Shown here: one piece after another, positions 41,942 to 51,752 of the stretch
Position numbering within the stretch: position 1 is the first letter of the stretch
Layout: the number at the start of each line of letters is the position of its first letter
Program-made: the position numbers and the translations under genes
Assembly (NCBI GenBank): GCA_018814405.1
Contig: JAHIZO010000009.1
Location: forward strand, 1-64,000
Length of the DNA stretch: 64,000 bases
Reading direction: 5' to 3'
Source: Gammaproteobacteria bacterium
GTDB lineage: Bacteria > Pseudomonadota > Gammaproteobacteria > Burkholderiales > Gallionellaceae
The notes under the pieces: model-generated
What the model saw: the letters and a program-made list of their open reading frames with translations, nothing else
What the model was told of the DNA's origin: nothing
Database searches by the model: none

Positions 41942-42636
41942 AATCAGCATGCTCTATGTTTAACGGCCCCCGCGCCTATCGACAGCGCGGTGTCGTTCTG
42001 TTCTTTGCTCTGGTCGCCTTGGTTGCGATGTCACTGGCAGCCGTGGCGCTGATCCGGTCGGTAGACACTAGCACCATCATCGCTGGCAATCTGGCGTTCC
42101 GCCAATCGACCACCAGCGCAGGGGATTCAGGCATCGAATCTGCCATGAGTTGGCTGTCAGCCATTCAATCTGCCAACAGCAATCTCAACGTATTGCTCGA
42201 TTCGACCCATCCTTTCAATACCACCGACTCTTCAGCCCGCCCGGGGTATTACTCAAACGTAGCAAATCTCGACATATCGAACCCGATGACGTGCTTTGAT
42301 CCGAGAATAGATGATATTGATCCCACCAATGATAGCGACCCTAGAAATTGCAGATTGCTCAATGATGATGCTGCAATCGATACGGATGGCAATGGAAATA
42401 AAATACGCTACCTCATTGAAAGAATGTGCCGCAACGCCGACCAAGTTCCCAGCATCGACCATTGCCTATTCAGTTCGGCTGTACAGGACAACTTCGGCCA
42501 GAACATCCCATTGCCACAAGAAGTCTGTACCGGAGCGGGCTGCCCTGTAGCAGGCCAGGCACCGCAGCTTCGCATCACAGTCCGTACCCAAGGGCCCAGA
42601 AACACGGTCAGTTACGTGCAGGCATTCGTTTACTAG
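41938..42636 (+). CDS. pilX: minor pilin PilX
   Basis: This 232-residue minor pilin has a less canonical N-terminus: cleavage after Gly in YRQRG, then VVLFFALVALVAMSLAAVAL, without Glu5, as is usual for PilX. Asp-rich stretches (DPRIDDIDPTNDSDPRN and DDAAIDTDGNGN) could bind calcium. The ATG at 41938 has AAAGGA upstream. Confidence 0.9.
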   Translation: MKSACSMFNGPRAYRQRGVVLFFALVALVAMSLAAVALIRSVDTSTIIAGNLAFRQSTTSAGDSGIESAMSWLSAIQSANSNLNVLLDSTHPFNTTDSSARPGYYSNVANLDISNPMTCFDPRIDDIDPTNDSDPRNCRLLNDDAAIDTDGNGNKIRYLIERMCRNADQVPSIDHCLFSSAVQDNFGQNIPLPQEVCTGAGCPVAGQAPQLRITVRTQGPRNTVSYVQAFVY

Positions 42637-42647
42637 CAGGAGGCGAC

Positions 42648-45600
42648 ATGAACACATTCAAAAAGCACACACAACCTTTCAGCATAAACGCGATCAAACT
42701 AGCGCTTTTGCTCTTCCCGTTGCTTTCTGCAGTGAATATTGAGGCTGCTTCCTTATCGCTCGCCACCTCACCGCTTGCGACATCTACCACCTCATCAGTC
42801 AAGCCGAACCTGCTATTCATCATGGATGATTCAGGCAGTATGAAGCGTGAATACATGCCGGATACGGTTAGTAGCAATGACGATAAATTCTGCTACCGCA
42901 ACCATAATTACAATGGCGTGTATTACAACCCAGGCCTCATCTATTCACTGCCGATCAAGAGTGATGGAAGTAACTATCCGAACTCATCTTTTACGAACGC
43001 CCAAGATGACGGCTATAGCGGTACGGCCAGTACGAACCTATCCAATGGATTCAGAGCCGGCGACGATGGAAGCGATCAAGCAGCCTACTACTACAAATAC
43101 ACCGGGACATCACCTGCGACGCCTGTGCCCGGTACTTGCTATGCGGATAGCAGCTATACGAGGGTCACTGTAAGCAGCACATCTGGCCCTGGCAGCACTG
43201 ACGAACGCCAGAACTTTGCCAACTGGTACAGCTATTACCGCACGCGCTTATTGACTATGAAGACTGCTGCCGGCCTGGCTTTCAGTGAGCTGGATGGAAA
43301 CTATCGCGTCGGGATGATGAAGATCAGTCAGACCAATCCGATCGTCAATATCGATGCCTTTAGCGGAACCCACCGAGACAGCTGGTTCAGCACGCTCTAT
43401 GGCATGACCGCCCCCGGTTCGACACCGCTTCGCCGTTCTCTCTCGGATGCTGGACGCTACTACGCAGGCAAACTGTCAGGCATCACAGACCCAATGCAGT
43501 ATTCCTGTCAACAGAACTTCACCATCCTCTCCACGGATGGTTACTGGAACAGTGATGGCGGAAAAAAACTGGATGATTCCACCATGGACAATCAGGACGG
43601 CAACCAGCCACGTCCCTATTACGACGGCTCTCCACTAGTCAACAAACGCAGCACCAGCCAGATTAATAAAACACAGATTCAGACCTCACAGAGCACTTCC
43701 CAGAATCAGAAACGGGAGTTGAAATCAGAAATCAGCAATTTGCAACGGCAGATATCCCAACTACAAATCCGTACTGGCACATTGCAAACCAGAACAGGCA
43801 GCAGTTCCACGGCACCTCTGGAAACACGAACTTCATCCAATTACGGGAGCTCATGGTCTAGCTGGAGTAGCGCAGCAACCTCAGGATGTGTAGAAGATAA
43901 TGGAGGAAGGAATCAAAGAGAATGTCGTGGCTCAATTGAGAAGAGTAGGTCTTATGATTACGGCGCCACATGGACTGCTTGGGCCGACTCATCCTCTACA
44001 GGCTGCACTGATGACAATTCCGGTAGGAATCAAACCATGTGCCGAGATGGGACAACTGCAACATGGGGCCCGTGGACCGACGCTACTTCTAGCTGCACCG
44101 TTTCAAGTACCACAGATTGTCAATATCTGTACTCGGCTTGGAACGATGCAACTTCATGCACTCCGAATCCTGCCTCACCTACTTCGCCATACACGGTGCT
44201 CAGCGCGAACGAGTGCCAAGAAGTGGTCTCGACGGCATATCAAAATGTCTCATCCTGTACTGAAAATGCGATTCCGGATGCGAGTGGCCAAACCACACAG
44301 TGCAGCTACTCATCATGGGTACTTGGCGGCTCCCCTTCAACTTGTACCGATGTCCCTCAAGACACGACCAACCCCTTTGACATGACGGCAAGTAGCGGCA
44401 TTGCAACACGATGTACCGATACCGGCTGGGTAGGAGCCAGCTCATGTACCTACAGCTCCACTACCGGCTATCTCAGAGAATGCCAAACAGTGAGCACAGG
44501 GCCTACGCTCGTCAGCTCATGTACTGCGGCCACCCCAAGCGCAAGTAACTCCTACACACTGACATCATGCAATAGCAGCACCATCCTTGCGGCCACGCCC
44601 GTTGGTTCTTGTACCCCGATCACTGCTTCGGCATCCAATAGCTATGTCGCGACAACCTGCAACACCGTCTCGTCCGGCCCTACGACCGTTGCTAGTTGCA
44701 CCGAGCAAGCTGCCTCCTTGGCCAATAATTGGACAGCGACCACTTGTACGACCGAGGCGGGAACAGGTGGTACCAGCAATACGCTGGCTGACGTTGCGAT
44801 GTACTACTACCAGACGGATCTAAGAACAACAGATCTGGGCAACTGCACCGGCGTGCTTGGCGAAGATGTCTGCGCTAACAACGTATTCCTTAGCGACTTG
44901 GATAAGAATACCCAGCAGCATATGACTACGTTCACATTGGGTATGGGGGCCGACGGAAGGATGGCCTACTCCCCCAGTTATCTCACCGATACAACTGGGG
45001 ACTATCCTTCGATTAAGAAGGTTACTCTGGCTACGGCATCTGTCTGCACCTGGCAGTCCACAGGTACGACATGCAACTGGCCCATACCCAGCTCAGGCGA
45101 CATTGAAAATATCGATGATCTATGGCATGCCGCGGTGAATGGTCATGGCGCCTATTTCAGCGCCAAAGACCCGACTTCTCTTTCTTCCAGTCTTGCGCAA
45201 GCCTTGGCGGGTATCAATTCCCGCAAAGGGGCGGCCGCGGCAGCCGCAACCAGTACGCTGAACCCTGTTGCCGGCAACAACTATGCTTTCGTTGCCAGTT
45301 ATACGACGCTTGCATGGAAAGGTAATCTCGAAGCTCGCGGCATCAACACACTAACGGGTGCAGTCAATGAAAATGCAGAATGGTGCGTGGAAAACGTCGT
45401 TGCCGGCACCTGCGCTTCCCCAAGCTCGGTAGCTGCAGAAGCCATTGGAGATACCACGACATACTATTGCGTCACGCCGAACTCGGTGATCTGCACGGGC
45501 GGCACACTTGATGGTACTGACTGTAAAGTCCCCATGGCGACTTCCTGCGCAGGAACCATGAGCAGTTTGGTCGGCGATGTCGTTGACTCCCGCACAATCA

Positions 45601-47375
45601 AGACTGCAAACAGCAGTGGAGATGCGTTGATCGACTTTAGCTATGCCAGCCTTACAGGTACTCAACAAGGCTACTTCTCTGCAACGAAGCTGGCCGGACT
45701 CAGCCAATGGGCGACACTTGATGCTACTCAGCAAGCCACAGCAGCAGGCACGAACTTGGTTAATTATCTGCGAGGCCAGTACGCCTATGATAGTCGCGAT
45801 ACCAACTTGGCAGCCAACCGGCTCTATCGCTACCGCGAAGCGGTAATGGGCGATGCTTTGGAATCCGAACCTGCCTTTATGGGGTCTCCGGTATTCAATT
45901 ACCCGTACCCGGGTTACAGCAGCTTCAAGTCAGCGAATACAAGCCGCTCCGGTATCGTTTACATCGGCGCGAACGACGGCATGATGCATGCCTTCTATGC
46001 AAAAGACAGTGCCGGTGCCGGCTCCCCTTGCGTCATTGGAGCCATAGCTGGCGAATATTGCGGCGGGGAGGAAGCATGGGCCTATGTGCCCAGTATGGTG
46101 ATGGAAGGCATGTGGAAGTTGGCTGACACAAATTACGCCACTTCGCACAAGAACTTTGTGAATGGCAGCCCAACCACTTCTGATGTCTGCGTTGCAAACT
46201 GCGCAGACAGTGCTTCTGCAGTATGGAAAACCATCTTGGTGGCCGGTTTGAGCGGCGGTGGTCGAGGATATTACGCACTGGACATCACAGACCCTGCCAA
46301 CCCGACCCTACTCTGGGAATTCACCACGATGGCAGGCTTGGGTGCTCAATCCGGCTATGACGATGATGATGTCGGTTACAGTTTCGGACACCCTATCATC
46401 ACCCGCAAGCAGGATGGCACATGGGTGGTGCTACTCACATCCGGCTATAACAACACATCCCCTGGCAGCGGAAAATCCTATCTTTATGTGATGAATCCAG
46501 AGACTGGCGCCATCATCAGCAAGATCGGCACTGGGGCTGGCAGCCTAACCACACCTAGTGGTCTCAGCCATATCGTTGGGTGGAATGACGAACCAGCAGG
46601 TAACTTGGTAGGCGTCGTCTATGGTGGAGATCTGCAGGGTAACCTCTGGCGCTTCGATATCAACAGCACAGTTGCCGGCAATACTGTAGCCGGAGAGATC
46701 GGTACAGGCGATGTCATGCTATTTGCAACGCTTAAAGATCAGTACGGCGTAGGTCAACCCATCACCACTACCCCTGTACTTGGCAAGATAAATGAGAAGC
46801 GTGTCGTTTTCGTAGGCACTGGAAAATATCTGGAGACCAGCGATCTAACTGATACGCAACTACAATCCATCTACGCAATCAAAGATGACAATGCAACCGC
46901 CACGCTGGTCAATGCGCGCAACTCTCTGGTTCATCAAACCATTGCCAATAGCTCAAGCGGTGCCTCGCGTAATTCAGGCAATGTGGCTGTCGACTTTTAC
47001 TCCGACCGTGGCTGGTATATCGACCTTCCAGACACCGGTGAACGTGTGAACATCGACAGCACACTGGTACAGGGTACGCTCATCGTTCCTTCGATCGTTC
47101 CATCGAACACCTCTTGCTCGCCAGGAGGCTACGGTTGGTTGAATTATCTTGATTACAGGACAGGGGGAGCTGTCAACACATCAGTCAACCTTGTTGCTGA
47201 AAAGACTGATTCAACTATCGTCGGTGTCAATGTTCTCTATATCGGTGGAGAACCGAAAGTCGGCGTCGTCACCTCGACCAATCCGACACCAACGGTGATT
47301 GATGCGGTGTCGTTCGCAGCCAATGCCCCTGTCTTCACAGGCAAGCGGGTGATTTGGCGTGAGCTGATCCCATAA
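42648..47375 (+). CDS. pilY1: PilY1-type pilus-tip adhesin with cysteine-repeat insertion
   Basis: This 1575-residue exported protein sits at the pilus tip and regulates retraction, adhesion and surface sensing. It has a signal peptide ending near NIEA, then a von Willebrand A-like domain with the metal-site DDSGSM at about residue 60. The C-terminal PilC beta-propeller (about 1070-1550) carries VYIGANDGMMHAFYA, GGRGYYALDITDP and GGDLQGNLWRFDI. Between TDGYWNSDGG and NTLADVAMYYY, which belong together in the family, lies about 350 residues: a Gln-rich helical stretch (about 340-385), then ten cysteine-pair repeats (about 400-705). AGGAGG precedes the ATG. A terminator follows. Confidence 0.92.
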   Translation: MNTFKKHTQPFSINAIKLALLLFPLLSAVNIEAASLSLATSPLATSTTSSVKPNLLFIMDDSGSMKREYMPDTVSSNDDKFCYRNHNYNGVYYNPGLIYSLPIKSDGSNYPNSSFTNAQDDGYSGTASTNLSNGFRAGDDGSDQAAYYYKYTGTSPATPVPGTCYADSSYTRVTVSSTSGPGSTDERQNFANWYSYYRTRLLTMKTAAGLAFSELDGNYRVGMMKISQTNPIVNIDAFSGTHRDSWFSTLYGMTAPGSTPLRRSLSDAGRYYAGKLSGITDPMQYSCQQNFTILSTDGYWNSDGGKKLDDSTMDNQDGNQPRPYYDGSPLVNKRSTSQINKTQIQTSQSTSQNQKRELKSEISNLQRQISQLQIRTGTLQTRTGSSSTAPLETRTSSNYGSSWSSWSSAATSGCVEDNGGRNQRECRGSIEKSRSYDYGATWTAWADSSSTGCTDDNSGRNQTMCRDGTTATWGPWTDATSSCTVSSTTDCQYLYSAWNDATSCTPNPASPTSPYTVLSANECQEVVSTAYQNVSSCTENAIPDASGQTTQCSYSSWVLGGSPSTCTDVPQDTTNPFDMTASSGIATRCTDTGWVGASSCTYSSTTGYLRECQTVSTGPTLVSSCTAATPSASNSYTLTSCNSSTILAATPVGSCTPITASASNSYVATTCNTVSSGPTTVASCTEQAASLANNWTATTCTTEAGTGGTSNTLADVAMYYYQTDLRTTDLGNCTGVLGEDVCANNVFLSDLDKNTQQHMTTFTLGMGADGRMAYSPSYLTDTTGDYPSIKKVTLATASVCTWQSTGTTCNWPIPSSGDIENIDDLWHAAVNGHGAYFSAKDPTSLSSSLAQALAGINSRKGAAAAAATSTLNPVAGNNYAFVASYTTLAWKGNLEARGINTLTGAVNENAEWCVENVVAGTCASPSSVAAEAIGDTTTYYCVTPNSVICTGGTLDGTDCKVPMATSCAGTMSSLVGDVVDSRTIKTANSSGDALIDFSYASLTGTQQGYFSATKLAGLSQWATLDATQQATAAGTNLVNYLRGQYAYDSRDTNLAANRLYRYREAVMGDALESEPAFMGSPVFNYPYPGYSSFKSANTSRSGIVYIGANDGMMHAFYAKDSAGAGSPCVIGAIAGEYCGGEEAWAYVPSMVMEGMWKLADTNYATSHKNFVNGSPTTSDVCVANCADSASAVWKTILVAGLSGGGRGYYALDITDPANPTLLWEFTTMAGLGAQSGYDDDDVGYSFGHPIITRKQDGTWVVLLTSGYNNTSPGSGKSYLYVMNPETGAIISKIGTGAGSLTTPSGLSHIVGWNDEPAGNLVGVVYGGDLQGNLWRFDINSTVAGNTVAGEIGTGDVMLFATLKDQYGVGQPITTTPVLGKINEKRVVFVGTGKYLETSDLTDTQLQSIYAIKDDNATATLVNARNSLVHQTIANSSSGASRNSGNVAVDFYSDRGWYIDLPDTGERVNIDSTLVQGTLIVPSIVPSNTSCSPGGYGWLNYLDYRTGGAVNTSVNLVAEKTDSTIVGVNVLYIGGEPKVGVVTSTNPTPTVIDAVSFAANAPVFTGKRVIWRELIP
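43843..44755 (+). repeat. coding array of ten cysteine-pair repeats in pilY1
   Basis: The encoded segment has ten units, each a Cys (usually SC-Thr) followed after 7-22 residues by a second Cys, giving 20 cysteines that can all pair. The first units have thrombospondin-like W-x-x-W before the Cys, as in SSWSSWSSAATSGC and ATWTAWADSSSTGC, and share NGGRNQ/NSGRNQ. The last three are near-identical in pattern: SC, then A-S-x-S-N-x-Y or A-N-N-W, then T-T/S-C. Confidence 0.8.
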
Positions 47376-48419: not shown

Positions 48420-48761
48420 TCAGCGCCAGCCGTCGATGTCGAGTGCGGTTTCGAACTGGGGTTTCTCCTGCAAAAATCGTGAGAGGGCAAAAGCTGCTGT
48501 CGGCTGCATCTGGATGCAGATCATCCTGACATTGATCGCCTGCATGGCACGGGCCAGCATATCCAGCCATGCGTAATACACGGGATCGATCAGCGACTGG
48601 TCCGAGAGGTCGTAATACAGACGCACGGCATGCGCCTGCAGCAGGCGCGCCGCGATGGCTTCGATCAGTTGTCCGCTGTTGCGCGTATTCAAACTTTTCG
48701 AAGGGTCGAGCAAAAAATCACCGCGCCCGATCTGCGTCAGGTGTAATCCGGGAATCGACAT
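48420..48761 (-). CDS. RsbS-like STAS-domain protein lacking the phospho-serine
   Basis: This 113-residue single STAS domain, compared from memory with Bacillus RsbS, has the same order: DLSDQSLIDP against DLTSVDMIDS, MQPTAAFALS against IQPAVAVTLI, and FETALDIDGW against IETALDLEQG. The residue at the RsbS Ser59 phosphorylation site is Pro60. It therefore cannot be switched off by the kinase in the classical way. It starts two bases after the rsbR-like gene. The RsbS identity is good by position and length; its function is inferred. Confidence 0.7.
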   Translation of the reverse strand: MSIPGLHLTQIGRGDFLLDPSKSLNTRNSGQLIEAIAARLLQAHAVRLYYDLSDQSLIDPVYYAWLDMLARAMQAINVRMICIQMQPTAAFALSRFLQEKPQFETALDIDGWR

Positions 48762-48763
48762 CT

Positions 48764-49624
48764 TCAGTGTGAGACGGTGATGCCCATGCGCGAGAATGCT
48801 TCCTTCAGCCCGTCGGACATGCTGGCGCGCGTGGTGATGTTGTTGAAATCGATGTTCAGACTGACCAGCGCACGGGCGATCTCGGGATGGATGCCGGTGA
48901 TGATCGCGTCCGAACCCATCAGTTGCACGGCGCGCACCATCTGGATCAGATGGTGCGAAACCTGCGAGTCGATGCTCTTCACACCGGTCAGATCCATCAC
49001 CACCGCCTTGGCATGATCTTTCGCGATGCGGTTGAGCAGCGCTTCCATCACCAGCATGGTGCGGCTCGAATCAAGCGTGCCGATGATGGGCAAGGTCAGC
49101 ACACCGTCCCATATCTCGGTGATAGGGGTCGCGGTCTCGCGTATCTCCGCCTGCTGGGCCTGCATGGTACTCTCGCGCTCTTCAAGGTAGGCGCGGAACA
49201 CGGCCATGATAAGTTCGTTGAAGATGCCGGTGAAATAGAGCAGGACCGTGCGCGATTCGCTGAACGCGATGCCGCTCGCTTTGGACAGCGCATCGATCAA
49301 TCCAAGTTGCAACGACTGGGTGTAGCGCACCACATCTTCCACATGGCCGCCGCGCATCAGCACCTGCTGCGACAAACTGCCGAAGAAGAACTCAAGCGCA
49401 TGGAATTCCGGCGACTGCAGATCGGTCGGATCCTTGGAACCCAGCAATGAAACGACCAGACTTTCGAATTCAAGACTGATATCGGCGACTTCCTCGGGAT
49501 CCATCAGGCGCTGGTCACCGCAGAAATACTTTATGCCGGATGCTTCCAGTTCAGGCGCGATGCCGCTGATCTTAAGTCCGAACAACCCCTTCAACTTTTC
49601 GCTGCCGCTTTTCCTGGCCACCAT
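48764..49624 (-). CDS. RsbR-like stressosome sensor protein
   Basis: This 286-residue protein has a helical N-terminal sensor-type domain (about 35-160), a linker with IRETATPITEIWDGVLTLP, and a C-terminal STAS domain (about 175-280) with MDLTGVKSIDSQVSHHLIQ and TGIHPEIARALVSLNID. These are RsbR signatures. The positions of the phospho-threonines Thr171 and Thr205 of B. subtilis RsbRA are Ser186 and Ser220 here, 34 residues apart as expected. GGGAG lies before the ATG. It should form the stressosome core with the RsbS-like protein. Confidence 0.8.
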   Translation of the reverse strand: MVARKSGSEKLKGLFGLKISGIAPELEASGIKYFCGDQRLMDPEEVADISLEFESLVVSLLGSKDPTDLQSPEFHALEFFFGSLSQQVLMRGGHVEDVVRYTQSLQLGLIDALSKASGIAFSESRTVLLYFTGIFNELIMAVFRAYLEERESTMQAQQAEIRETATPITEIWDGVLTLPIIGTLDSSRTMLVMEALLNRIAKDHAKAVVMDLTGVKSIDSQVSHHLIQMVRAVQLMGSDAIITGIHPEIARALVSLNIDFNNITTRASMSDGLKEAFSRMGITVSH

Positions 49625-49648
49625 TTCATCTCCCTGAGTAGTTATTGA

Positions 49649-50701
49649 TTATTTTCCCACGACCGAAACGCAGATCGACTGGTCATCGGAAATGCGCCCC
49701 ATGATATTCCCCAGCGTATAAGCGATCAATTGCGGATGCTGGTTGAACAAACCGACGAAATTCCCGGTATCCCAGTTGCGCCGGATGCCGTCGCTCGCCG
49801 TCACCACCACCGCGCGCTTGCCGAGTTTACCGCGAACCGGGCTGGTCGCCCTGTGTTCCCTACCCAGTATCCCGGGAGCGAAACCGAAGTGCTGCATCTC
49901 GTCCTGCTCGTAGATCCTGGCATGCATATCGCCCACCCCGTGCAACTGGTACCCGTGCCGCACGGTATCGATCTCGCAGATCGCCGCCACTGCGCCGCGC
50001 GTCGAAACCAATTGCCGGTCCACTTCATGCAATATCGCGCCGATGTCGGTGTGATGTTCGACATGCTTCCCCAGATTGGCCGTCGCATTCTGCGCCTCAG
50101 CACCATGCCCCAAACCATCCAGATGCAGCCAACACAAACGGCCCTGCTTCTGCTGCAGATAGATGCGATCACCGTTATGCCGGGTATCGGAGAGCGAGCG
50201 GGAATAAATACCGATATCGTTACCCAGCATCCTTGTCCTGCCTTGCCCGATATTGAAGCGGGCCAGAAAGACCGTGCCGCTCCACTTGGGTATCTGGCTG
50301 TGAGACCGGTGCTGCGTGTAAAAATAGGATTCGTCGCTCAGGCGGCGGATGGCCCCCAAGCCTTTGCCAAAAGTGTTCGAGGTCGAATAACCGTCCTGCT
50401 CGGCCCGATCCATATCGTTGATACCGGGACCGTAATCCAGCGAAAGGATATCCAGCACCGGGCCGGGTTGCTGCCAAAGCTGGATCAGACCGCGTCCGCC
50501 GGCATGCTTGATATTGTTGGTTCCCAACTCGGCCGCGACCAGCATGATGTTCTCGCGCTGGTGATCCGGTATGTTGAGCCGGTTGGTGATGGCAAACAGC
50601 TTGGAGCGCAGCAGCACCAGCGAGCTTTCATCCTGGGTGGAACTGCTGTGCAGCAGCTTGCAATCCACCGCGCTGTCGAACACCTTGTGAGCTTTCAACA
50701 C
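49649..50701 (-). CDS. fused RsbT-like kinase / RsbX-like PP2C phosphatase
   Basis: This 350-residue protein has two domains. Residues 20-150 form a GHKL ATPase of the RsbT anti-sigma-kinase type: N-box Glu58 and Asn62 (AAELGTNN), DYGPGI (89-94) and FGKGLGAIRRL (111-121). Residues 160-350 are a SpoIIE/RsbX-type PP2C phosphatase with metal-site Asp195 in HLDGLGHGA, SDGI and the C-terminal DDQ. In classical stressosomes the kinase and phosphatase are separate proteins with opposite effects. The start is GTG, overlapping the GGDEF gene end. Catalytic motifs of both halves look intact. Confidence 0.82.
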   Translation of the reverse strand: MLKAHKVFDSAVDCKLLHSSSTQDESSLVLLRSKLFAITNRLNIPDHQRENIMLVAAELGTNNIKHAGGRGLIQLWQQPGPVLDILSLDYGPGINDMDRAEQDGYSTSNTFGKGLGAIRRLSDESYFYTQHRSHSQIPKWSGTVFLARFNIGQGRTRMLGNDIGIYSRSLSDTRHNGDRIYLQQKQGRLCWLHLDGLGHGAEAQNATANLGKHVEHHTDIGAILHEVDRQLVSTRGAVAAICEIDTVRHGYQLHGVGDMHARIYEQDEMQHFGFAPGILGREHRATSPVRGKLGKRAVVVTASDGIRRNWDTGNFVGLFNQHPQLIAYTLGNIMGRISDDQSICVSVVGK

Positions 50702-51675
50702 GCCATTCCCGGACAGTCCATGTTACATGCGCCTGAACGTTGGCTTGGACACTGATCGATCTGCGCCTGGCCGCGTCCTGATCGTTTTGCCTCGTATAGC
50801 GAGTTGTCCGCACTGCGGACAAAATCCTCGAGCAGCAGTTCTTCGGCCGTGTCCTTGTTGATGGTAGAAACGCCGATACTGACCTTATGCGACATCATTT
50901 TAAGCACCTGCTTCGCCTTGTCGCACGCCTGCGGGTAATCGGCATAGATCACCACGGCGAATTCATCACCGCCGAAACGGAAGGCAAAATCCACATCCTC
51001 CCGGATCACCTTGCGCAATACTTCCGCCATTTTGACCAGATGCTGATCACCGACCTGGTGACCGAACTCGTCATTGATCTGCTTGAAGTGATCAAGATCG
51101 AGGAACAGCAACGAGACGGGCGCATTTTTCTGACGCATGGTGTGCAAAAAGATCTGCCTGAGTCGCACATCGAAGGCCCGCCGATTGTATAGACCTGTCA
51201 GCGCATCCGTCTCGGCAAGGTAGAGGGTTTCCTGAAGCTCGTTCTGTCGGCGTTTGAGGGATTGCTGCAGCAGCTCAAGCTCCATTTCGGCATTCGCTCG
51301 CACCTCGTCGAAATGACGCTTCATGTCGATATTGCGCTGCAAAAGGATCTCGGGGTCGACCAGCGCGACGGAGTTCTCCATGAAGCAGCGCAACTCGGCG
51401 ATCCGCTCCGGAGCTGGCATTTGGGCCAGTGCCACGATCTTGGACTGTTCGCCCTGCCCCCAATGCACGACCAACTGCCGCTCACGCAGGGCCAGACTGA
51501 CCGGCATCGGATTACCCATCGCAGCACCGGCATGACGCAATTGCTCCAGCAGACCCAGAACAGCGATAGTGGCGGCGAACACATTCCCCCCGAGATCGCT
51601 CACGCTTTTCAGCACGAACTCGATGAAATTCTGCAGATCAGGTTCGATCGCAAGATTTTGCTTGAGAATCTCCAC
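50695..51675 (-). CDS. diguanylate cyclase (GGDEF) of the stressosome-like module, with four-cysteine tail
   Basis: This protein of about 326 residues makes cyclic di-GMP. It has an N-terminal helical and mixed region without recognised domain (1-115), a coiled coil (about 115-152) and a GGDEF domain with DALTGLYNRRAF, FLDLDHFKQIND and an intact FRFGGDEF. The product-inhibition RxxD site is not at its usual position. The last 18 residues hold four cysteines spaced C-x7-C-x3-C-x4-C. There is no membrane segment. GTG at 51675 has GGAG eight bases upstream; GTG three codons earlier is possible. It is first in the module, which points to cyclic di-GMP as output or co-output. Confidence 0.85.
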   Translation of the reverse strand: MEILKQNLAIEPDLQNFIEFVLKSVSDLGGNVFAATIAVLGLLEQLRHAGAAMGNPMPVSLALRERQLVVHWGQGEQSKIVALAQMPAPERIAELRCFMENSVALVDPEILLQRNIDMKRHFDEVRANAEMELELLQQSLKRRQNELQETLYLAETDALTGLYNRRAFDVRLRQIFLHTMRQKNAPVSLLFLDLDHFKQINDEFGHQVGDQHLVKMAEVLRKVIREDVDFAFRFGGDEFAVVIYADYPQACDKAKQVLKMMSHKVSIGVSTINKDTAEELLLEDFVRSADNSLYEAKRSGRGQAQIDQCPSQRSGACNMDCPGMAC

Positions 51676-51752
51676 CAGCCCCACTCCAGATCAGGTCATG
51701 TGAATCAATCGCACGATTGGAACACAAAACGAAATACATGCCTACCACGCAG

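Follow-up and report, generated by a model that had tools for sequence, protein, structure and literature searches.

Does a stressosome-type complex control the synthesis of cyclic di-GMP (c-di-GMP) in the Gallionellaceae, and through which protein contact would it do so? The question is raised by four adjacent leftward genes in a stretch of 64,000 nucleotides from a Gammaproteobacteria bacterium of this family (GenBank assembly GCA_018814405.1, contig JAHIZO010000009.1, positions 1 to 64,000 of the forward strand; hereafter the window). The gene products are a diguanylate cyclase (DGC), a fused kinase and phosphatase (TX), an RsbR-type protein (R) and an RsbS-like protein (S), and the genes are arranged as follows:

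50695-51684, minus strand: DGC, diguanylate cyclase open reading frame (ORF) of 329 amino acids with a GGDEF match
49649-50701, minus strand: TX, RsbT-like kinase and RsbX-like PP2C phosphatase in one chain of 350 amino acids
48764-49624, minus strand: R, RsbR-type protein of 286 amino acids with a helical N-domain and a STAS domain
48420-48761, minus strand: S, RsbS-like single-STAS protein of 113 amino acids

The DGC and TX genes overlap by 7 bases, TX and R are separated by 24 bases, and R and S by 2. A first-pass annotation of the window had described four adjacent leftward ORFs with these domains, and both the coordinates and the domain assignments held in ORF and Pfam or profile checks. 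It had started DGC at the second in-frame GTG, at 51675, which gives a protein of 326 amino acids, three residues fewer; a GGAG precedes this GTG at a plausible distance. It had also regarded the genes as a stressosome-like set of R, S, kinase and phosphatase with the cyclase as its apparent output. The present analysis supports this view, with the cyclase as dedicated output. The four genes are a conserved unit with a patchy distribution, and a stressosome-type complex probably controls the cyclase, which makes c-di-GMP.

The linkage of the four genes was analyzed by a scan of genome contigs started from TX. The scan gave 67 TX loci on named genome contigs, mostly from metagenome-assembled genomes (MAGs). 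In 57 of these loci, DGC, TX, R and S share a strand and keep the same order, and the remaining ten are cut by contig ends. The arrangement can therefore not be attributed to chance. Four of the 57 complete loci (L047, L060, L061 and L071) have a split or clipped gene. The hosts include Gallionella, Sideroxydans, Sulfuricella, Thiobacillus and Hydrogenophilus, as well as a Halorhodospira MAG and the isolate Desulfobotulus alkaliphilus.

Within the class, 368 other genomes were searched with the DGC N-terminus, and 15 were positive. TX is adjacent in all 15, and all four genes are present in 14, the last locus being cut by a contig end. The first-pass annotation had asked whether the GGDEF gene routinely occurs without the other three; in these genomes it does not. 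When S was used for the search, 13 of 99 other relatives were positive, and the four genes follow one another in the order DGC, TX, R, S in each of the 13 regions fetched. Among 398 Pseudomonadota genomes, strong matches to the DGC N-profile were found only in the genome of the window and in genome G665, the matching region of which has all four genes. In the whole-genome searches (DGC N-terminus, RsbT-like domains in the window's own genome, Pseudomonadota and alphaproteobacterial outputs), at most 9, 10 or 18 first-look candidates per genome were scored.

The surroundings of the cassette are variable. In the window it is flanked by lspA (Peptidase_A8) and ispH (LytB), a site common to only two of the 13 regions found with S. 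The most frequent cluster of flanking genes is present at 14 of 68 loci, to either side and on either strand. A conserved extra neighbour was rejected, since no cluster exceeds this count. The four genes, fixed amid variable surroundings, thus represent a conserved unit.

Several further observations were made on the loci. Genes split over two frames were found for S in L061 and L088, for DGC in L047 and for R in L071, by breakage or assembly error. Locus L079 (5024-7032), from a MAG that bears the label Anaerolineae, is a contig-end cassette of which DGC and TX are visible; its TX is 48% identical, and misbinning or transfer could account for it. Locus L094 (5041-8431), the cassette of the isolate D. 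alkaliphilus, shows the lowest TX identity of the scan (35%) and a Thr at the S phosphosite. Near the cassette of the window, after ispH and on the opposite strand, lies a long ORF with a PilY1 beta-propeller domain (42426-47375, plus strand; T4P_PilY1, 2.7e-49). Three promoters and five terminators were predicted around the cassette; these counts are close to those in shuffles (2.4 and 4.1) and are thus uninformative.

Residues of the four proteins were counted in the best match per locus; fragments of up to about 60 residues and a spurious S match of L094 were excluded. TX consists of two halves:

50255..50701, minus strand: kinase half of TX (GHKL, RsbT-like), with a HATPase_c_2 match (1.3e-5)
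49652..50218, minus strand: PP2C half of TX (SpoIIE, RsbX-like), with profile matches to 3zt9 and 3w40

In the single-sequence Pfam search, the HATPase_c_2 match scored 25.6 bits, slightly under the curated cut-off of 27.4, and the SpoIIE match was weak (0.088). A homologue profile of the PP2C half matched 3zt9 best in the PDB (8.3e-15) and RsbX 3w40 at 1.4e-8; 3zt9, deposited as SpoIIE, is presumably the Moorella phosphatase. The ATP-site residues E53, N57, D84, G86, G88, G107, G109 and G111 and the aspartates D190, D299, D334 and D335 (alignment column numbers) are kept in all 67 sequences. We take the phosphatase aspartates to bind metal. TX supplies both an RsbT-type kinase with intact GHKL motifs, in fused form only, and an RsbX-type phosphatase, and a search of its own genome gave no second RsbT-like match. 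The fusion in itself was rejected as a novelty: 14 of 17 canonical proteobacterial stressosome regions hold such a fusion beside a separate RsbT.

R is the only RsbR match in its own genome. It matched Pfam STAS (4.1e-14), and in phmmer searches its residues 130-285 matched the Vibrio stressosome chain 7o0i_B (3.7e-31) and its residues 137-278 matched RsbR 7b0u_A (5.3e-28). The N-domain match is weaker: RsbRD_N was found weakly in 34 of 60 R homologues (best 0.00099), and globin was not one of the Pfam families listed for these homologues. The AlphaFold2 model of R has a mean predicted local distance difference test score (pLDDT) of 80 and a predicted template modelling score (pTM) of 0.52. 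Its best Foldseek match is the Listeria stressosome chain 7b0u_0, which has 274 residues and is RsbR by its length (289 columns; query-normalised TM-score, 0.47; root-mean-square deviation (rmsd), 11). The fold predictions were made from alignments of the window protein with 60 of 66 homologues for DGC and 59 of 65 for R. Both positions that are phosphorylated in RsbR bear a hydroxyl residue in all 60 aligned sequences:

49067..49069, minus strand: Ser186 of R, first RsbR phosphosite position; Ser in 60 of 60 homologues
48965..48967, minus strand: Ser220 of R, second RsbR phosphosite position; Ser in 59 and Thr in one of 60

From the alignment to RsbR, we take the two serines to correspond to T171 and T205 of B. 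subtilis.

The situation in S is different. The single-sequence Pfam search of S gave no match. A profile of S matched RsbS structures (best E 0.011), and STAS was found in 10 of 14 S members, by which the possibility that S is unrelated to STAS was rejected. The residue of interest is:

48582..48584, minus strand: Pro60 of S, at the RsbS phosphoserine position (S59 in B. subtilis) by alignment to RsbS

The first-pass annotation had called S an RsbS-type protein. It is a STAS protein that matches RsbS profiles, but the defining serine is missing (D59-P60), and S as a classical RsbS was rejected on this ground. Among 60 S proteins, the position is occupied by Pro in 36, Gln in 10, Glu in five, Thr in two, Ala in two, and Arg, Gly, Leu, Asp and Ser in one each. 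In the canonical regions, Ser or Thr was kept in all 16 RsbS proteins read (15 Ser, 1 Thr); the pattern did not match in L145, and the single STAS gene of L147 was counted as S. The cassette would thus provide a naturally occurring R/S pair that lacks the RsbS serine. This bears on B. subtilis RsbS S59A, with which signalling was weakened but not abolished and phosphorylation-independent signalling was reported (PMC3944199).

DGC was divided into three parts:

50770..51216, minus strand: GGDEF domain, residues 157-305 (Pfam PF00990, 5.5e-36)
51211..51354, minus strand: long helix, residues 111-158, predicted linker to GGDEF (AlphaFold2 model and alignment)
51364..51684, minus strand: N-terminal domain, residues 1-107, proposed decayed RsbT-like (GHKL) domain

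The GGDEF motif is intact in all 66 aligned DGC homologues. The canonical RxxD inhibitory site is absent, if the motif spacing is as we assume; the Arg position is taken by Glu in the window, and six of 66 homologues have Arg there. A conserved segment, D110-P111...L114..R117-N118, opens the helix in the alignment. No RsbU_N or other Pfam domain was found before GGDEF, and RsbU_N was not among the 25 of 35 families listed for 42 homologues of the N-domain. A cyclase of the Moorella MtG type, with RsbU_N, was rejected accordingly. As the first-pass annotation had stated, no RsbU is nearby; RsbU_N matched nowhere in the window's own genome. The score of DGC against the SiaD model, 107.8 bits, is far below the cut-off of 290, which does not fit a SiaABCD system. 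Pfam gave no receiver domain in DGC, TX, R or S, and with the S site also lost, the set does not fit HsbRAD.

On the basis of these sequences, the reading that we prefer, to which we give a probability of about 0.43, is a self-contained stressosome-type switch, in which the cyclase would be docked through its own N-domain and TX would phosphorylate R. R and S would form the STAS scaffold of a joint complex, and the helical N-domain of R would take the signal. The kinase half of TX would phosphorylate R at Ser186 and Ser220, and the RsbX-like half would remove the phosphates. S, which could not be phosphorylated at the usual site, would be fixed in the role of docking subunit. The cyclase may be held on this scaffold, or on the kinase domain of TX, by a decayed RsbT-like N-domain. 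Phosphorylation of R would loosen the contact and allow the coiled-coil linker to pair two GGDEF domains, so that c-di-GMP would rise; the phosphatase half of TX would then reset the switch.

Is the N-terminus of DGC a decayed RsbT-like domain? The comparisons tip slightly in favour of a relationship with the RsbT-like domains of some stressosome output kinases. The AlphaFold2 model of DGC (mean pLDDT, 86.6; pTM, 0.54) shows in the N-domain a strand (3-10), two helices (14-30 and 35-52), three strands (61-67, 70-75 and 79-85) and a further helix (92-107). We take the strand-helix-helix-strand-strand start to fit the first half of the GHKL fold. An RsbT-like domain opens the output protein in eight of the 17 canonical regions; the three of these outputs that were scanned with Pfam are all histidine kinases, not cyclases. 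The eight outputs, aligned together with that of L134, have a common linker after the domain.

The best match to the DGC N-profile outside the cassettes, among the 398 Pseudomonadota genomes, was found in G565 (22.2 bits, E 3.7e-4 per genome). This match, aligned in register, falls on the RsbT-like N-domain of a kinase that is a stressosome output. In a shuffle test, all nine RsbT-like domains of alphaproteobacterial outputs exceeded the 99th percentile of shuffles (2.0 bits). This level was passed by two of 33 other T or TX domains (15 separate T domains and 18 T or TX domains of alphaproteobacterial loci), none of 14 canonical TX, none of 16 cassette TX and two of 80 reversed sequences. Only one of eight further output domains passed it, the G565 gene again; one of the nine outputs is also among these eight, and L131, L151 and L161 are one gene. 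In hhalign, the N-domain matched the alphaproteobacterial output set with p 0.0063, and 40 of 40 column-shuffled controls were weaker. The DGC linker matched the output linkers with p 2.4e-4 and a probability of 44%, the output alignment including G562 and G565. In the alignment, the catalytic Asn and the glycine boxes would be gone from the DGC N-domain. If the relationship to RsbT is real, the domain would therefore be a pseudokinase domain. For the eight other weak matches to the N-profile, nothing in their short loci exceeded 5 bits as RsbT, R or TX, and hhalign gave a probability of 0.1% between the N-domain and the kinase half of the cassette's own TX.

A number of facts weigh against the proposed switch and the RsbT-like origin of its docking domain. 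Gene linkage is no proof of direct contact. Ser or Thr is found at the S phosphosite in three of the 60 S proteins and, as Thr, in two of 14 from further loci of the class. The total is five of 73 (60 and 14, with L112 and L074 apparently one contig of equal length, 25137), some of which look near-identical, such as L049 and L050 with equal profile scores. The loss of the site is therefore not absolute. The second match of the DGC N-profile, to the output linker of G562 (E 0.0067), barely beats an unrelated GGDEF protein (E 0.0073), and G562 came fourth when the matches were rescored. The DGC linker is helical, and chance similarity is cheap in such a segment. The nine outputs of the shuffle test are related to each other and were fetched via the first match; six of them score 2.7-6.4 bits and one 8.4. 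The hhalign match of the N-domain to the output set has a probability of 6%, and its p rises to 0.061 without the two best-scoring outputs. Against other RsbT-like sets, hhalign gave nothing significant (probability 0.1-0.2%). Pfam and PDB searches of the N-domain stayed at chance level (best PDB E 0.16), and no GHKL-named entry was among the 50 Foldseek matches listed per library (PDB, viral). Since these Foldseek lists are dominated by GGDEF, the fold search is uninformative on the N-domain.

There is another possible interpretation of the conserved linkage. R and S may sequester TX as in Moorella, and stress may free it, so that the kinase half binds or phosphorylates the N-terminus of the cyclase and switches it on. 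A precedent exists in Moorella, in which the cyclase MtG is placed under an RsbT homologue (PMC12143880, PMC4976288). The overlap of the DGC and TX genes in the window, their adjoining position in the 57 complete loci and the intact key kinase residues of TX would all agree with such a freed kinase, which the first-pass annotation had thought probable. However, DGC has no RsbU_N, which is reported to be the RsbT-receiving domain of RsbU and MtG, and S has lost the phosphosite that the classical model ties to release. TX also bears a phosphatase, which would be expected to stay near R. We consider this interpretation unlikely.

Contact could also be made by the STAS proteins themselves. Depending on its phosphorylation state, R or S would then bind the cyclase at the coiled-coil linker, and TX would only set that state, as suggested by SiaC-SiaD (PMC8457831) and HsbA-HsbD (PMC5085249). 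The long predicted helix of DGC, with its conserved segment, could offer such a binding site, and SiaD has the top query-normalised TM-score (0.54, at an rmsd of 17 Å) among the 50 Foldseek matches listed for DGC. Most S proteins, however, cannot be phosphorylated at the STAS site, no DUF1987 (SiaC-type) match was found among the Pfam matches of 14 S proteins, and the conserved N-domain of DGC would be left without a role. A mechanism of this kind seems quite improbable. That the cyclase is only co-inherited or co-expressed with TX, R and S, following its own signal and contacting none of them, is highly improbable, since the order is kept in all 57 complete loci amid variable surroundings and strong DGC N-domain matches were not found without TX, although operons can contain loosely related genes.

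We return to the self-contained switch with its docked cyclase. Tentatively, it may be placed in a wider class: in proteobacterial outputs that carry their own RsbT-like domain, the scaffold might hold and release the effector directly, and in the cassette this domain might have become a dead pseudokinase, with the S site lost and catalysis residing in TX and R. If this rather doubtful extension is true, the class would be widespread among proteobacterial stressosomes, and its members would use the RsbT-like domain of the output instead of sending RsbT to a receiver of the RsbU type. The broader problem is the route from a stressosome to its output when sigma-B is absent. According to Heinz et al. 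(PMC9237108), most of the downstream proteins considered are without RsbU_N, and tests for an RsbT-D1 interaction in Vibrio gave no positive result. A four-protein cassette of fixed composition, with an enzymatic output and two motif losses, makes the problem testable. For relatives of bacteria that oxidise iron and sulfur, it would also tie the sensing of stress to c-di-GMP.

The cassette was finally compared with known systems. No description of the four-gene composition, the S-site loss or the RsbT-like outputs was found in the open PMC literature, seen mostly as titles, abstracts or passages. The canonical comparison comprises 17 proteobacterial regions (L131-L143 and L145-L148); L144, the other of the 18 fetched, was left out as a further cassette. 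In 14 of the 17, the order is R, S, a separate T and then the TX fusion. The exceptions are L145 and L148, with a separate phosphatase, and L147, with a fusion and no separate T in the stretch read. A separate RsbT is thus present in 16 of 17 canonical modules, whereas the cassette has none. Two of the canonical outputs are GGDEF-EAL proteins (L138 and L147), and the output of L134 starts with what is apparently a decayed RsbT-like copy.

The stressosome of Moorella thermoacetica reportedly controls the diguanylate cyclase MtG, as Quin et al. are said to have found in 2012. The cassette resembles it in the RsbR/S scaffold, the RsbT-type kinase, the RsbX-type phosphatase and the GGDEF output. 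The kinase and phosphatase of Moorella are, we assume, separate proteins, whereas they are fused in the cassette. Moorella RsbS has the serine (S58 in the PDB title of 3zxn), whereas S has lost the site. MtG carries RsbU_N and GAF, neither of which is present in DGC (PMC12143880).

The SiaABCD and HsbRAD systems of Pseudomonas aeruginosa also resemble the cassette, in that a STAS protein, a kinase and a phosphatase act on a diguanylate cyclase. They are not known to contain an RsbR/RsbS pair or an RsbT-RsbX fusion. In their case, it is a single phosphorylatable STAS protein that binds the cyclase (PMC8457831, PMC5085249). In HsbRAD, the response regulator HsbR combines kinase and phosphatase, and HsbA has Ser56 (PMC5085249).

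Modules of this general kind are known, as the first-pass annotation had remarked; examples in print are Moorella MtG (PMC12143880, PMC4976288) and RSTX genes near c-di-GMP proteins (PMC9237108). The rsbRSTX modules of Proteobacteria described by Heinz et al. in 2022 lack sigma-B and have c-di-GMP proteins among their outputs (PMC9237108). In these modules RsbX is described as a phosphatase of one domain and the outputs lie downstream (PMC9237108), whereas the cassette has the order output-TX-R-S and no separate RsbT. A cyclase as the output of a stressosome is already known from Moorella. As far as the sequences can tell, the cassette departs from the textbook system in three features: a fused T/X without a second RsbT, an S protein that has lost its phosphosite, and a cyclase that carries a conserved N-domain of its own in place of RsbU_N.

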